Part shown: one piece after another, positions 50,979 to 56,440 of the stretch
Numbering within the stretch: the first letter of the stretch is position 1
Layout of the letters: each line of letters opens with the position of its first letter
Notes under the pieces: generated by a model
The model's database searches: none
Told to the model about the DNA's origin: nothing
What the model saw: the letters and a program-made list of their open reading frames with translations, nothing else
Position numbers and translations under genes: made by a program
From: Streptomyces sp. CB00455
GTDB taxonomy: Bacteria; Actinomycetota; Actinomycetes; Streptomycetales; Streptomycetaceae
Assembly: GCF_001905445.1 (NCBI RefSeq)
Contig: NZ_LIVQ01000002.1
Location: 992,001 to 1,056,000, forward strand
Reading direction: 5' to 3'
Length of the DNA stretch: 64,000 bases

Positions 50979-52301
50979 TCAGGCGGCCACGGGGACCTTC
51001 ACCGGCTCCGCGGGCTGCGGGGCGGGCTCGTCCAGCGGGGAGGACGAGGCGGCGGCGTAGGCCTCCTTGTCCAGGATTCCCTCGCGGGCCGAGACGATGA
51101 CCGGGACGACGGCCTGGCCGGCCACGTTGGTGGCGGTGCGCATCATGTCCAGGATCGGGTCGATCGCCATCAGCAGGCCGACGCCCTCCAGGGGCAGGCC
51201 CAGGGTGGACAGGGTCAGGGTCAGCATGACCGTGGCACCAGTGAGGCCCGCCGTGGCGGCCGAGCCGACCACCGAGACGAAGGCGATGAGCAGGTACTCC
51301 TTGATGCCGAGCTGCACGTCGAAGATCTGCGCGATGAAGATCGCGGCGAGCGCCGGGTAGATCGCGGCGCAGCCGTCCATCTTCGTCGTGGCGCCGAACG
51401 GGACGGCGAAGGAGGCGTACTCCTTCGGGACGCCGAGGCGCTCGGTGACCTTCTGGGTGACCGGCATCGTGCCGACCGACGAGCGGGAGACGAACGCCAG
51501 CTGGATCGCGGGCCAGGCGCCCTTGAAGAACTGGACCGGATTGACCTTGGCGACCGTCGCGAGGAGCAGCGGGTAGACGCCGAACATCACGAGCGCCGAA
51601 CCGATGTAGACGTCGGCGGTGAAGGTGGCGTACTTGCCGATCAGGTCCCAGCCGTACGTGGCGATCGCGGTGCCGATCAGGCCGACGGTGCCGAGCGGGG
51701 CGAGGCGGATGACCCACCACAGGGCCTTCTGGAGGAGCTCCAGGACGGCCTCGGCGATGTTCAGGACCGGCTGTGCCTTGCTGCCGAGCTGAAGGGCGGC
51801 GATGCCGGCGACGGCGGCGAGGAAGACGATCTGAAGGACGTTCAGCTCGGTGAAGGGCGTGATGATGTCCTTCGGCACGATGCCGGTCAGGAAGTCGATC
51901 CAGGAGCCCTGCCGCTTGGGCAGCTTGCCGTCCTGCGGGGTGAGGCCGGTGCCCGAGCCCGGGTTGGTCAGCAGGCCGATCGCGAGGCCGATGCCCACCG
52001 CGATCAGCGAGGTGATCATGAACCAGAGCAGGGTGCGGGAGGCGAGCCGGGCGGCGTTGTTCACCTTCCGCAGGTTGGTGATGGACACCAGGATCGCGAA
52101 GAAGACGAGCGGGGCGACGGCCAGCTTGAGCAGCTGGATGAAGATGTCGCCGACCTGTTCGAGCGTGGTCCTGAGCCAGCTGACGTCCTGGCTGCGGGCT
52201 ATCCAGCCGAAGAGGACGCCGAGCACGAGACCGGCGATGATCTGGGCCCAGAAGGGGAAGCGGAAGGAGGCCTTGGCGGGGGCCTGGGGGGTCGCGGACA
52301 C
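50979..52301 (-). CDS. DAACS-family symporter, TcyP-like (predicted L-cystine uptake)
   Basis: A 440-residue glutamate-transporter-fold protein with about eight helices and two re-entrant loops. The first loop reads SRSSVGTMP. Helix 7 reads TTKMDGCAAIYPAL, where typical members have NMDGT; helix 8 reads ILDMMRTATNVAGQ, where Na+-coupled members end in Asp. From memory, E. coli TcyP has the same SRSS, a GCAGLYPAM segment and no final Asp, so this protein groups with cystine symporters by eye. The GTG at 52299-52301 is chosen (GGAG seven bases before); earlier in-frame starts at 52305 and 52323 are possible. The polycysteine leader upstream independently suggests a sulfur amino acid substrate. 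Confidence 0.75.
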   Translation of the reverse strand: MSATPQAPAKASFRFPFWAQIIAGLVLGVLFGWIARSQDVSWLRTTLEQVGDIFIQLLKLAVAPLVFFAILVSITNLRKVNNAARLASRTLLWFMITSLIAVGIGLAIGLLTNPGSGTGLTPQDGKLPKRQGSWIDFLTGIVPKDIITPFTELNVLQIVFLAAVAGIAALQLGSKAQPVLNIAEAVLELLQKALWWVIRLAPLGTVGLIGTAIATYGWDLIGKYATFTADVYIGSALVMFGVYPLLLATVAKVNPVQFFKGAWPAIQLAFVSRSSVGTMPVTQKVTERLGVPKEYASFAVPFGATTKMDGCAAIYPALAAIFIAQIFDVQLGIKEYLLIAFVSVVGSAATAGLTGATVMLTLTLSTLGLPLEGVGLLMAIDPILDMMRTATNVAGQAVVPVIVSAREGILDKEAYAAASSSPLDEPAPQPAEPVKVPVAA

Positions 52302-52435
52302 GGACACGCTCCGGTGGGGACGCACAAAGAACTGGGGGCAGGGTTCTGCGGTGGCGCTGGTCTGGCGGTGCGACAGCCGGAAAGAGGCCGGCCGGGACCG
52401 CTGCTGTATCGATTCAGCTCAACGGGGAGCGGGAA

Positions 52436-52543
52436 TCAGCGACAACAGCAACAGGCCGCGGACACGCGGCGGCAGAGGTCGACGTGCAGGCGCGCCACGA
52501 GCGGGACGCTCGGGGTCATCGGGTGCGCGGCCTTGGTCAACAT
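52436..52543 (-). CDS. Polycysteine leader peptide (candidate cysteine attenuator)
   Basis: A 35-residue open frame starting at ATG 52541-52543 and ending in SAACCCCR then TGA. The four consecutive Cys codons are TGT TGC TGT TGT; TGT is a rare codon in such a G+C-rich genome, which suits ribosome pausing as a sensor. A promoter positioned so that transcription begins at the A of the ATG implies leaderless translation. Polycysteine leaderless short ORFs are known cysteine-responsive attenuators in mycobacteria. It precedes the TcyP-like gene by about 135 bases of G+C-rich sequence able to form hairpins. Confidence 0.72.
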   Translation of the reverse strand: MLTKAAHPMTPSVPLVARLHVDLCRRVSAACCCCR

Positions 52544-52550
52544 GTTGAAC

Positions 52551-52580
52551 ACGCTAACACTTCCCCTTTGGGAATCTCAA
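52551..52580 (-). promoter_or_regulatory. Promoter of the polycysteine leader and symporter
   Basis: Minus-strand TTGAGA (52575-52580), 18-base spacer, TAGCGT (52551-52556), then seven bases to the leader ATG, the spacing expected for a leaderless transcript. The start site overlaps the palindrome TCAACATGTTGA (52537-52548), a possible repressor site. Confidence 0.6.
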
Positions 52581-52637
52581 AGGCGTTCTTTGGGACGAGG
52601 GCGCGGGCGACGGGCTGCGGCGCCCTGGAAAACACCG

Positions 52638-52678
52638 CCGCCCCAGCGCTACGGGCGGTGTACCCGTTGCTGGGGCGG
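52638..52678 (-). terminator. Terminator of the DUF4229 gene
   Basis: CCGCCCCAGC pairs with GCTGGGGCGG; an inner ACGGG/CCCGT pair and outer ACACCG/CGGTGT extend the structure. It lies 30 bases beyond the minus-strand stop at 52708. Confidence 0.6.
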
Positions 52679-52707
52679 TTCGGTGTGTGATGAAACCGAC
52701 GAGGAAC

Positions 52708-53019
52708 CTATGAGGCGACCCGGGCCGCGTCGTCGACCTGGTCCTCCTGGCTGCGGTTCGCGGCGAGCTTCTCCTTCGCCCCGGCGACGCGGCCGGTGAT
52801 CTGCTCGGACATCTCGTCGCGCTGCTTGCGCAGCAGGACGTAGGAGAGCGGCGCGGACAGGACGAGGGCGAGCAGCACGATCCAGGCGGCATTGGCGTCC
52901 CCGAGGGCGGAGGGCACCCAGCCGAGGCGGACGAGGAGCGCCACGACGACGAGGCATCCGACGAAGATGCCCAGGCGCATTGCGGTGTAGCGGATCGTTG
53001 CGCTCGCCTTGAGGGACAC
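52708..53019 (-). CDS. DUF4229 small membrane protein
   Basis: A 103-residue protein with two hydrophobic helices (RLGIFVGCLVVVALLVRLG and AAWIVLLALVLSAPLSYVLL) followed by a charged cytoplasmic tail (RKQRDEMSEQITGRV). This is the DUF4229 layout found in actinobacteria, function unknown. The GTG at 53017-53019 follows AAGGG. Confidence 0.8.
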   Translation of the reverse strand: MSLKASATIRYTAMRLGIFVGCLVVVALLVRLGWVPSALGDANAAWIVLLALVLSAPLSYVLLRKQRDEMSEQITGRVAGAKEKLAANRSQEDQVDDAARVAS

Positions 53020-53122
53020 GGTGACCCTTCTCTCTCGTCGTCCTACGCCAGAAATGTCTCCGTCCAGTGAAGCACGCCGGGGCCCCGCCCCGGCCCGGGG
53101 GTCGCTCAGTGCAGGGGGTCGC

Positions 53123-53647
53123 TCAGTGCAGGGGCAGCAGCATCGTGATGTCGTCTCGGTCGTCGCCCGGGGCGACGCGGATGGCGTCCGGGACGCGGCC
53201 GACCTCCTTGTAGCCACAGGCGGCGTAGAAGTGCTCCAGGCCGTGGCCGCCCCGGCAGCCGAGGCGGATGGCCTCGATGCCCTCGACGGAGCGGGCCGCC
53301 CGCTCGGTCGCGGCCATCAGTGCGCGTCCGTGGCCCTTGCCCTGGTGGCGCGGGTGGACCATCACCGTGTACGCCCACAGCCAGTGCCGTTGGAGCCGGT
53401 GCGTGTTGTGGGTGAGGAAGGCAGTGGCGGCGACTTCGCCGTCCGCGTCGCGTCCTACCAGCAGCCGGCTCCCGCCGTCGGCGACCGCGGCGAGCTGCCC
53501 GATCAGCGCGGGGCGGATGTCGTCGACGGTGACCGGAGGCACGAAACCCACGGCGCCGCCCGCGTTGGTGGCGTCGGCCCACAGCGTCAGGATGCCTTCG
53601 CGCAGGGCGGGGTCGATGACCGGGTCGAAGGTAAAAGTAAGGGTCAT
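53123..53647 (-). CDS. GNAT-family N-acetyltransferase
   Basis: A 174-residue acetyltransferase. VMVHPRHQGKGHGRALM is the acetyl-CoA-binding motif A (Q-x-x-G-x-G), and GLEHFYAACGYKEVG the C-terminal GNAT motif. ATG at 53645-53647 is taken; a GTG at 53681-53683 would add 12 residues with no better start signal. A perfect 17-bp tandem duplication (53101-53117, 53118-53134) spans its stop codon and changes nothing in the protein. Substrate unknown. Confidence 0.82.
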   Translation of the reverse strand: MTLTFTFDPVIDPALREGILTLWADATNAGGAVGFVPPVTVDDIRPALIGQLAAVADGGSRLLVGRDADGEVAATAFLTHNTHRLQRHWLWAYTVMVHPRHQGKGHGRALMAATERAARSVEGIEAIRLGCRGGHGLEHFYAACGYKEVGRVPDAIRVAPGDDRDDITMLLPLH

Positions 53648-53767: not shown

Positions 53768-54931
53768 TCAGACGCGCATGGCCTGCGGCGTCTCGCGCAG
53801 GCCCGCCTCCGGGCCCGGGTATTCGCGGATGATCTCGTACCGCGTGTTGCGCTCGACCGGGCGGAAGCCCGCCTCGCGGATCAGCTCCAGCAGGTCCTCG
53901 CGGCCCAGCTTGTTCGGAGTGCCGTAGTTGTCCGCGTCATGCGTGATCTTGTACTCGACGACCGAGCCGTCCATGTCGTCCGCGCCGTGCTGGAGCGCGA
54001 GCTGGGCGGTCTGCACTCCGTGCATCACCCAGAAGACCTTGACGTGCGGCACGTTGTCGAAGAGCAGCCGCGAGACGGCGAAGGTCTTCAGCGCCTCGGC
54101 GCCCGTCGCCATCGTCGTCCGCGCCTGGAGCCTGTTGCGTACCTTTCCGTCCTTCATGTCCACGAAGTCGTGCTGGTAGCGCAACGGGATGAAGACCTGG
54201 AAACCTCCGGTCTCGTCCTGCAGCTCACGCAGCCTCAGCACGTGGTCCACCCGGTGGCGCGGCTCCTCGATGTGCCCGTAGAGCATCGTCGCGGGCGTCT
54301 TGAGGCCCTTGGAGTGCGCGAGCCGGTGGATGCGCGACCAGTCTTCCCAGTGGGTGCGGTGGTCGACGATGTGCTGGCGGACCTCCCAGTCGAAGATCTC
54401 CGCGCCGCCGCCGGTGAGCGACTCCAGGCCCGCCTCGATCAGCTCGTCCAGGATGTCGGAGGCCGACATCCCGGAGATCGTCTCGAAGTGGTGGATCTCG
54501 GTCGCCGTGAACGCCTTCAGCGAGACGTTCGGCAGCGCCTTCTTCAGCTCGGACAGCGAGCGCGGGTAGTACCGCCACGGCAGGTTCGGGTGCAGGCCGT
54601 TGACGATGTGCAGCTCGGTGAGGTTCTCGTTCTCCATGGCCTTGGCCAGGCGCACGGCCTCCTCGATGCGCATCGTGTACGCGTCCTTCTCGCCCGGCTT
54701 GCGCTGGAAGGAGCAGTACGCGCACGAAGCGGTGCACACGTTCGTCATGTTGAGGTGGCGGTTGACGTTGAAGTGGACGACGTCGCCGTTCAACCGCGTG
54801 CGCACCTCGTGGGCGAGGCCACCGAGCCAGGCCAGGTCGTCCGACTCGTAGAGGGCGATGCCGTCCTCACGCGTCAGCCGCTCGCCGGAGCGGACCCTCT
54901 CCTCCAGCTCGCGCTTGAGCCCAGCGTCCAT
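53768..54931 (-). CDS. mqnE: Aminofutalosine synthase
   Basis: A 387-residue radical SAM enzyme joining 3-enolpyruvylbenzoate and adenosine to aminofutalosine (futalosine pathway, step after MqnA). The cluster motif is CTASCAYC; FNVNRHLNMTNVC before it and IVNGLHPNLPW, TEIHHFETISG and QHGADDMDG later are MqnE signatures. Stands alone between an Lrp regulator upstream and its own terminator. Confidence 0.96.
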   Translation of the reverse strand: MDAGLKRELEERVRSGERLTREDGIALYESDDLAWLGGLAHEVRTRLNGDVVHFNVNRHLNMTNVCTASCAYCSFQRKPGEKDAYTMRIEEAVRLAKAMENENLTELHIVNGLHPNLPWRYYPRSLSELKKALPNVSLKAFTATEIHHFETISGMSASDILDELIEAGLESLTGGGAEIFDWEVRQHIVDHRTHWEDWSRIHRLAHSKGLKTPATMLYGHIEEPRHRVDHVLRLRELQDETGGFQVFIPLRYQHDFVDMKDGKVRNRLQARTTMATGAEALKTFAVSRLLFDNVPHVKVFWVMHGVQTAQLALQHGADDMDGSVVEYKITHDADNYGTPNKLGREDLLELIREAGFRPVERNTRYEIIREYPGPEAGLRETPQAMRV

Positions 54932-55007: not shown

Positions 55008-55481
55008 TCAGCCCTCCTCGGGCAGTTCCCCGACCCGGTTCTCCCACTTGGTGGAGAGCACGATGGTGGTACGCGTCCGCGAGACGCCCTTGGTGCCCGA
55101 GAGCCTGCGGATGATCTTCTCCAGGCCGTCCACGTCGCTGGCACGCACCTTCAGCATGAAGGAGTCGTCGCCCGCGATGAACCAGCAGTCCTCGATCTCC
55201 GCGAGGTCGCGCAGCCGGCGGGCCACGTCCTCGTGGTCCGCGGCGTCGGAGAGGGAGATGCCGATCAGCGCGGTGACGCCGAGACCGAGCGAGGCCGCGT
55301 CGACGGTCGCGCGGTAGCCGGTGATGACTCCGGCCGTCTCCAGCCGGTTGATGCGGTCGGTGACGCTGGGGCCGGAGAGGCCCACGAGACGGCCCAGCTC
55401 CGCGTACGAGGCACGGCCGTTTTCCCGGAGTGCCTGGATGAGCTGCCTGTCCACCGTGTCCATTTGCGTGGAGCCTTCCAT
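55008..55481 (-). CDS. Lrp/AsnC-family transcriptional regulator
   Basis: A 157-residue feast/famine regulator: helix-turn-helix at about 20-60 (YAELGRLVGLSGPSVTDRINRL) and a C-terminal RAM domain that binds an amino acid (VTALIGISLSDAADHEDV, FMLKVRASDVDGLEKII). The ATG at 55479-55481 is used; a second in-frame ATG at 55461-55463 has a slightly better AAGG site. Divergent from a 47-codon gene across a 105-base region with a strong palindrome. Ligand unknown. Confidence 0.88.
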   Translation of the reverse strand: MEGSTQMDTVDRQLIQALRENGRASYAELGRLVGLSGPSVTDRINRLETAGVITGYRATVDAASLGLGVTALIGISLSDAADHEDVARRLRDLAEIEDCWFIAGDDSFMLKVRASDVDGLEKIIRRLSGTKGVSRTRTTIVLSTKWENRVGELPEEG

Positions 55482-55522
55482 TATTCGGTGATCCTGCAAG
55501 TCTAGGTATAGAATCTAAGGCA

Positions 55523-55586: not shown

Positions 55587-55730
55587 GTGTACACGATCGA
55601 GATGGCCTACGCGCACATGCGACAGCTCCAGGAGCTGGCCAACCGATCCCGTGCCCACCAGCCGTCCGCCGCCCAGCGCCTGACCGAGGGCGGCAAGACC
55701 CAGGGGCCGCGCGGCGCCAAGAAGGCCTAA
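55587..55730 (+). CDS. Small basic protein, 47 residues, function unknown
   Basis: The GTG at 55587 follows AGGAG at a good distance and opens 47 codons with normal Streptomyces codon use: a helical start (YTIEMAYAHMRQLQELANRS) and a basic Gln/Gly/Lys-rich tail ending GAKKA. An in-frame ATG lies at 55602. No known family; the ribosome binding site and position opposite the Lrp gene make it likely to be real. Its end overlaps the end of convergent ubiX by four bases. Confidence 0.65.
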   Translation: MYTIEMAYAHMRQLQELANRSRAHQPSAAQRLTEGGKTQGPRGAKKA

Positions 55731-56440
55731 CCACCGCCACCCGCCCCCCGGGGAGCACGGGAGCCACCGGGCTCCCCCTCCCGGGCGGCCCCGCCGAGCT
55801 CCCCGTCCCAGCGGCGGTAGAGCCCGTGCGCCACCCCTGCCGCGTCCAGCACGCGGCCCGCGACGAAGTCCACCAGGTCCTGGATGTGCGTCGCACCCGC
55901 GTAGAACGCCGGAGAGGCGGGCAGCACGACCGCGCCGGCCTCGTCCAGCGCCACCAGGTGCCTGAGCGTCTGGCCGCTCAGCGGGGTCTCCCGCACCGCG
56001 ACCACCAGCCGGCGCCGCTCCTTCAGGGTCACGCTCGCCACGCGCTGGAGCAGGTCCTTCGACAGTCCGAGCGCCACCCCCGCCACGCAGGCCGTGGACG
56101 CCGGGACGATGAGCATCCCCTTGACCGGGTACGACCCCGAACTCGGGCCCGCCGCCAGGTCCCCCGCACCCCAGTACCGGACGTCTCCCGTGAAGGGTTC
56201 GAAGGCCCCCGGCTTGCCGTCGGCGCCGCGCGCCAGCCACTGCGTCAGATCGTCCCGCCAGTGCGCGTCGCGGAAGGCGATCCCCGTCTCGTCCAGCAGG
56301 GTCAGGCGCGAAGCACGGCTGACCACCAGGTCGACACTCTCCCCCGCATCGAGCAGCCCCCGGAGCACCGCCGCCGCGTACGGCGTCCCGGACGCCCCCG
56401 AAACCCCGACCACCCACGGGGTGCGCTTGCGCTCAGTCAT
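55727..56440 (-). CDS. ubiX: UbiX-type flavin prenyltransferase
   Basis: A 237-residue enzyme that prenylates FMN to make the cofactor of UbiD decarboxylases. GVSGASGTPYA (about 12-22) is the flavin site, VVSRAS and VPASTACVAGVALG follow, and VVAVRETPLS is a UbiX signature. A 25-residue Gly/Arg-rich tail is unusual. With ubiD and mqnP close by it probably serves the late futalosine-pathway decarboxylation (called mqnM in that context). Confidence 0.93.
   Translation of the reverse strand: MTERKRTPWVVGVSGASGTPYAAAVLRGLLDAGESVDLVVSRASRLTLLDETGIAFRDAHWRDDLTQWLARGADGKPGAFEPFTGDVRYWGAGDLAAGPSSGSYPVKGMLIVPASTACVAGVALGLSKDLLQRVASVTLKERRRLVVAVRETPLSGQTLRHLVALDEAGAVVLPASPAFYAGATHIQDLVDFVAGRVLDAAGVAHGLYRRWDGELGGAAREGEPGGSRAPRGAGGGG

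Follow-up and report, generated by a model that had tools for sequence, protein, structure and literature searches.

Does a short frame that closes in a run of cysteine codons let a streptomycete gauge its own cysteine supply, and does it set the output of the transporter gene behind it? The locus that raises this question lies on the minus strand of a 64,000-nucleotide stretch of Streptomyces sp. CB00455 DNA, the window of our analysis. Direct reading finds a 35-codon frame from an ATG at 52543 to a TGA at 52436, translated as MLTKAAHPMTPSVPLVARLHVDLCRRVSAACCCCR before the stop, whose 3′ end reads TGT TGC TGT TGT, then CGC (Arg) and TGA. The promoter ahead of it (52551–52580) consists of TTGAGA (52580–52575), an 18-base spacer and TAGCGT (52556–52551), followed by seven bases and the ATG, and 134 bases lie between the leader stop and the GTG at 52301 of a symporter gene (50979–52301). 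The first-pass annotation had described both the frame with its four Cys codons, three of them TGT, and the promoter seven bases before the ATG, and both read as described there. We consider it probable that a cysteine-responsive leader of the NF042934 type controls the symporter, with a second layer of control at an operator in the promoter; most likely, the leader would let the ribosome itself measure cysteine.

The leader frame and its conserved parts

Symporter orthologues came from two sources, a scan of named genomes (best 80 of 589 relatives) and a set of 61 genomes, which together gave 107 loci (L003–L082, L001 and L083–L108); the same species may be present twice (the leaders of L013 and L091 are identical). 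The leader motif stands 5′ of the symporter orthologue at 102 of these 107 loci, a set that includes the best 80 of the 589 relatives. The pattern HxDL[CVAR] found 101 of the leaders, and L093, with Gly after DL, was added by reading. The motif extends to two other families of the order (L105–L107). In two of the 102 (L029 and L084) the leader is disrupted after HVDL, likely by a frame change, and the symporter is kept; five loci (L032, L098, L103, L104 and L108) have no such leader on direct reading. Although the search pattern requires H, D and L, the symporter loci showed no similar leader without these residues.

The −10 box was searched in the 101 leaders with the pattern GTGTTANNGT (or GTGTTGACTA), which matched all except L045, L105, L106 and L107. 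Among the 97 matching loci the box is TANNNT in 96 and TGACTA in one, and the start codon follows after 7 nt in 83 and after 6 nt in 11; in the remaining three the scripted start is a GTG at 1 nt, yet an ATG is present at 7 nt. Scripted starts are ATG at 77 loci and GTG at 20, those three included. Because the spacing across orthologous loci is 6–7 nt, the ATG at 52543 is favoured and the GTG at 52552 was rejected as the leader start, and the same spacing predicts translation from a leaderless ATG. Since Streptomyces loci repeatedly share the promoter, the start codon and the leader, the arrangement is, by this comparison, beyond chance. A generic sigma-70 scan of the window called no promoter at the leader, and an Rfam search of 51800–53200 at E up to 1 returned no match. 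At L045 an inverted duplication containing N surrounds the leader start (about 1305–1420) and is probably an assembly fault.

For comparisons within the leader, the disrupted L029 and L084 and the tail-extended L096 and L099 were removed from the 101, leaving 97 leaders with 77 distinct sequences. Counted from the motif His as position 0, residues R−2, H0, D2, L3, C4, R5 and C11 each occur in 77/77 distinct leaders, R−2, R5 and C11 lying outside the search pattern; position +4 is Gly in L093, which does not belong to this set. Over the motif R-L-H-V-D-L-C-R (52469–52492; positions −2 to 5) pN/pS is 0.02, against 1.36 at −9 to −5, 0.63 at −4 to −1 and 0.54 at 4 to 11. This low ratio, at a pS of 0.39, argues that the motif is held as a peptide, not as RNA. 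The codon 11 positions past the His (52451–52453) is TGT in 96 of the 97 leaders, and at C4 79 leaders use TGC and 18 use TGT. TGT is a rare codon: in a background of 29 window frames, picked by length and codon composition, it accounts for 11 of 110 Cys codons. Among the rows left out, position +11 is TGT in L096, TGC in L099 (with its tandem tail), and TGC and CGT in the disrupted L084 and L029, respectively.

The Cys tract, which had been put forward as the feature to align across Streptomyces, did not prove to be the conserved part. Four Cys in a row occur in 6 of 101 leaders, and the run was rejected as a conserved sensor; the constant elements are the peptide motif and one TGT. Counted from the His, the 97 leaders hold two Cys in 8 cases, three in 29, four in 53 and five in 7. 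The extra codons TGC TGT TGT of the window (52442–52450) are, by this distribution, a lineage-specific feature. These leaders are maintained by selection acting on the peptide and on a single codon, and not just by an abundance of Cys codons.

A leader family before sulfur genes

The model NF042934, a "putative leader peptide" (cis_reg_atten), describes the motif [HA]-V-D-L-x-R...C in actinomycetes, often before sulfur genes, and the leader studied here is of the same kind. The window copy scores 15.2 bits against a cut-off of 27 and, in a scan of its own genome, ranks no better than several chance-like matches; with E up to 10, the search also gave matches in 10 of 14 control genomes, none over the cut-off. 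Its membership therefore rests on its orthologues. Six of these, scored singly, gave 35.6 and 31.7, which pass, and 26.4, 25.6, 22.0 and 18.9, which fall below 27, and all of the 32 leaders chosen from 87 distinct ones match at E ≤ 1. By these scores the orthologues belong to the family, and with the deep conservation this supports the earlier reading of the locus as a predicted leaderless, cysteine-linked leader before a transporter. The case is less novel than was first supposed, as NF042934 already covers this kind of leader and has many members in the class, with a match over the cut-off in 57 of 79 genomes and in 0 of 14 controls.

Five other matches in the window's own genome exceed the cut-off, and the genes 3′ of them encode a Sulfatase, a ThiS-like protein together with a cysteine-synthase-like one (named by eye, with a weak Cds1 match), a cysteine dioxygenase, a NIR_SIR protein (sulfite/nitrite reductase) and a Rhodanese. 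Together with the 29 best-scoring class loci given, some of the same genus, these make 34 family members at other loci, and the +11 codon is TGT in all 34 (31 scripted, three read on shorter loci). The other Cys codons of the 31 scripted members comprise 48 TGC and 11 TGT. D, L and R belong to the NF042934 profile and are partly selected by it; the TGT codon is not. Downstream genes were scanned for ten of the 34, the next frame being picked mechanically and some picks plainly not being genes; the five scanned at class loci gave APS kinase, CbiX, NMT1-like, luciferase-like and DUF4395 domains. The window's genome also holds three weaker NF042934-like frames, of which L118 (flavin-reductase-like gene 3′) and L119 (2OG-oxygenase-like gene 3′) have TGT at +11 and L117 has no Cys there; the genes downstream of all three were named by eye.

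Polycysteine leaderless attenuators of mycobacteria are reportedly the subject of work by Canestrari et al. in 2020. The present leader resembles them as a short, predicted leaderless ORF, in the window copy with consecutive Cys codons, that would form the first cistron and has a link to cysteine, here a predicted one. It differs in its target gene, and here the Cys run is optional and the peptide motif with one TGT is constant. Passages of PMC9031893, PMC9094748 and PMC13236596 describe such mycobacterial attenuators, and in a passage of PMC1262725 Cys leaders are predicted in mycobacteria, P. acnes and B. longum. Cysteine leaders of this type are already a known kind in related bacteria. The leader L188, which has six consecutive Cys, ties the mycobacterial type to the same motif: it scores above the cut-offs of NF042934 and of NF042933, the family named for Ms5788A. 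For S. lividans, the leader table in the consulted part of PMC8079986 assigns none to cysteine, and its metL leader, assigned to methionine, holds three Cys. Literature searches over titles, abstract starts and passages returned no description of a Streptomyces symporter gene preceded by a cysteine leader, nor the literal leader motif strings. Compared with NF042934, the window copy differs in its score below the cut-off, its Cys run, its SDF symporter target and a predicted operator over its promoter. By the same searches, the symporter target, a palindrome common to Cds1 genes, and peptide selection with a nearly fixed TGT look new.

TnaC and SecM are leaders that work by nascent-chain arrest. 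As in these, conserved residues lie 6–13 positions before the codon that would be sensed, where an arrest motif would lie in the ribosomal tunnel, and the selection on the peptide before the stall codon that is a trait of arrest peptides is present here over positions −2 to 5. The signal differs, in that it would be the loss of charged tRNA, and arrest here is putative. The pattern suggests a role for the nascent peptide in sensing. It also raises the question of how cysteine can be sensed where a single Cys codon follows the motif, as in 6 of the 31 read. One answer, which we offer as possible rather than probable, is that the members of NF042934 as a whole are conditional arrest peptides in which V-D-L-x-R, 6–10 residues before the decoding site, would make the ribosome, at one fixed UGU, unusually sensitive to a shortage of Cys-tRNA. 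A single Cys codon would then suffice, and Cys runs would be a later, lineage-specific addition.

The symporter and a palindrome common to cds1 genes

The symporter gene most likely starts at the GTG at 52301, not at the GTG at 52325; a GGAG (52312–52309) sits seven bases before the former. The product has an SDF domain (PF00375, 357 bits, E 1.7e-106), and its TM7 segment KMDGCAAIYPA shares with that of E. coli TcyP (QNGCAGLYPA), annotated as a cystine/sulfocysteine:cation symporter, the signature GCAxxYPA with one inserted residue, which is absent from E. coli GltP, DctA and SstT. This signature is read from the single TcyP reference and is not a curated rule. Overall identity is 29.8% to TcyP, 27.0% to GltP, 27.5% to DctA and 23.2% to SstT; in the SDF carrier alignment, L002, L109, L111 and L105 contributed no residues. 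Since the leader-free L108 also has GCAAIYPA, the signature and the leader are not strictly coupled. The fold and the TM7 signature agree with the earlier description of a TcyP-like symporter. The TM7 signature, the leader and the operator taken together make cystine, or a sulfur amino acid related to it, the likely substrate.

The earlier account of the promoter left out a predicted operator over the −35 box. It consists of a palindrome, CTTTGAGATTCCCAAAG (52566–52582), and an outer CAAAG half-site (52588–52592), which together read CAAAG-N5-CTTTGAG-N3-CTCAAAG. The palindrome is recognisable at 96 of 97 loci, and over the 97 loci several columns are invariant and those of the outer half-site nearly so. 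In the window's genome the whole arrangement is unique at up to 3 mismatches and the palindrome alone at up to 1. The exact palindrome occurs in 38 of 101 genomes of the genus, and the backward control gave none. Inspection of 15 of the 38 places found seven before the symporter leader, seven before a gene for a PLP enzyme and one within a coding region that by eye resembles recA. An HMM test of one of these seven PLP genes identified it as that of the L-cysteine desulfhydrase Cds1 (604.8 against 600), and the other six were recognised from similar starts; the palindrome lies 5′ of cds1 at 1937–1953 in L138 and likewise in L139, L140, L141, L143, L144 and L146. Two genomes (G007 and G013) have it before cds1, yet have no close symporter orthologue. 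With up to 3 mismatches it is found at 13 of 24 Streptomyces cds1 loci and at 0 of 6 outside the genus, and the window's own cds1 promoter shows none (best 6 mismatches). A plus-strand scan had called the palindrome a transcription terminator; this was rejected, given that its bases, the third half-site and the placement before cds1 are conserved. Two independent lines, the sulfur-family leader and the palindrome common to Cds1 genes, connect this symporter, conserved in Streptomyces, with the supply of cysteine.

Proposed coupling to the symporter and competing readings

In the proposed mechanism, the symporter mRNA would open with the leader as its first cistron, translated from a leaderless ATG. 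Under a shortage of Cys-tRNA, the ribosome would stall at Cys codons, chiefly at the TGT that is constant at +11 from the His of R-x-H-x-D-L-x-R; the motif, this TGT and NF042934 membership before sulfur genes all favour such cysteine-responsive stalling. The stalled ribosome would mask leader RNA that otherwise helps to close the ribosome-binding site of the symporter, and uptake would rise. With ample cysteine the ribosome would depart and the site would close. As a second layer, a protein would bind the CAAAG-N5-CTTTGAG-N3-CTCAAAG element over the −35 box.

Folding predictions agree with the coupling step in part. Over 97 loci, the mean cost of opening the Shine-Dalgarno GGAG (52309–52312) falls from 5.15 to 4.26 kcal/mol when the leader is masked at the first Cys and to 4.19 kcal/mol at the last, an average easing of about 0.9–1.0 kcal/mol (Wilcoxon p 2e-8; as the loci share descent, this and the other p-values are descriptive). 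Opening becomes easier at 56–58% of the loci and harder at 13–14%; with shuffled gaps it is easier in 21–26% and the mean cost moves from 5.68 to 5.71–5.76. For the window's own leader RNA the cost is 5.82 without masking; a stall at the first Cys raises it to 7.12, and stalls at the +11 TGT and the last Cys lower it to 4.95 and 5.40, respectively. This RNA folds only slightly better than its shuffles (z −1.7 and −1.5). Mycobacterial attenuators, in which the stalled ribosome blocks a structure hiding the ribosome-binding site, thus compare with a modest mean easing here and a mixed response in the window RNA.

The loci were divided by leader tail into clades A (57 loci), B (22) and C (16, including the window). 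Pairing between the Shine-Dalgarno and the leader itself is predicted at 16/22 loci of clade B, 4/57 of A and 2/16 of C, and in clade C masking affects the ribosome site at 7/16. In clade A the CRC-M codons pair with a downstream CAUGCAGCGGC (mean z 2.9, 77% at p<0.05 against dinucleotide shuffles), and 94% of 570 cells are paired, against 18–65% when the helix is slid; covariation lends it no support, because one double change stands against 0 to 2 in the slid controls. A helix in the gap of clade B was not significant. In the window, ACAGCAGCGG (52398–52407) can form 10 pairs, G-U included, with CUGUUGCUGU of the Cys run (52454–52445), and this pairing reaches p<0.05 at 0/16 loci of clade C. 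Leu +3 is CTC in 66 of 77 leaders, and in window frames CTC makes up 464 of 1264 Leu codons; this excess fits CUCUG/CGGAG pairing but not at every locus. The leader ORF of the window contains a hairpin, CGAGCG-TCC-CGCTCG (52498–52512), and some stem of at least 4 pairs occurs in this stretch at 97/97 loci; as a conserved RNA element it is weak, a raw count in a stretch whose amino acids are constrained as well. The clade-wise folding comparison found no single RNA switch conserved across all clades. The refolding of about 135 bases before the symporter gene, as first proposed, is therefore modestly supported, by the mean easing over the 97 loci, and least so in the window's own clade; the route from stalling to the symporter appears clade-dependent and is weakly supported by these models.

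Stalling could instead decide whether RNA polymerase passes the 134-base gap, by classical or Rho-dependent attenuation of transcription. The alternative helices of clade A and a gap that by eye is C-rich would fit such a scheme, and a passage of PMC1262725 suggests Rho for mycobacterial cys leaders, a prediction there termed rather weak. We think it unlikely, since the minus-strand scan found no hairpin with a T-run, the trait of classical attenuators, between leader and gene in the window, and the predicted opening of the ribosome site shifts on average toward translational control. Somewhat more weight goes to a doubt about the cargo, namely that the symporter carries aspartate, glutamate, a C4-dicarboxylate or a sulfonate and that cysteine merely signals sulfur status. 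In NCBIfam the leading names are DctA and GltP, with every score far below the cut-off, the nearest solved structure (9bgz, E 1.9e-74) is labelled an aspartate transporter, and the TM8 residues D...RT..N are kept, though TcyP keeps the same residues. We still regard another acid as the less likely cargo, as TM7 carries the TcyP-type GCAxxYPA with its insertion, not found in GltP, DctA or SstT, and the leader and the Cds1-common palindrome point to cysteine.

A further reading dispenses with the leader: an operator-binding protein alone would control the symporter, and the leader ORF would be a by-product or a mere tuner of leaderless translation. Leader-free loci speak for it. L032 and L103 keep an intact palindrome and L098 and L104 a degenerate one, each with the promoter; at L103 (about 1401–1450), which reads as a natural loss of the leader, the palindrome and −10 box persist and are followed by the symporter's own ATG at the leaderless position. 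Because four of the five leader-free loci retain operator and promoter in this way, the leader is dispensable; L108, the most distant locus, has neither leader nor palindrome on direct reading. Control by the operator alone is nevertheless very improbable in our view, given the peptide selection and the nearly fixed TGT, and given that the leader motif also stands before unrelated sulfur genes.

For the second layer of the preferred two-layer reading, the simplest guess from the position of the site over the −35 box is that the protein binding the predicted operator is a repressor. A gene for an Lrp/AsnC-type regulator lies on the minus strand at 55008–55499, about 2.5 kb upstream of the leader, and its product is a possible candidate for binding the palindrome. 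Its neighbours are a CofH/MqnC-like radical SAM gene (53768–54931) and a flavoprotein gene (55727–56440).
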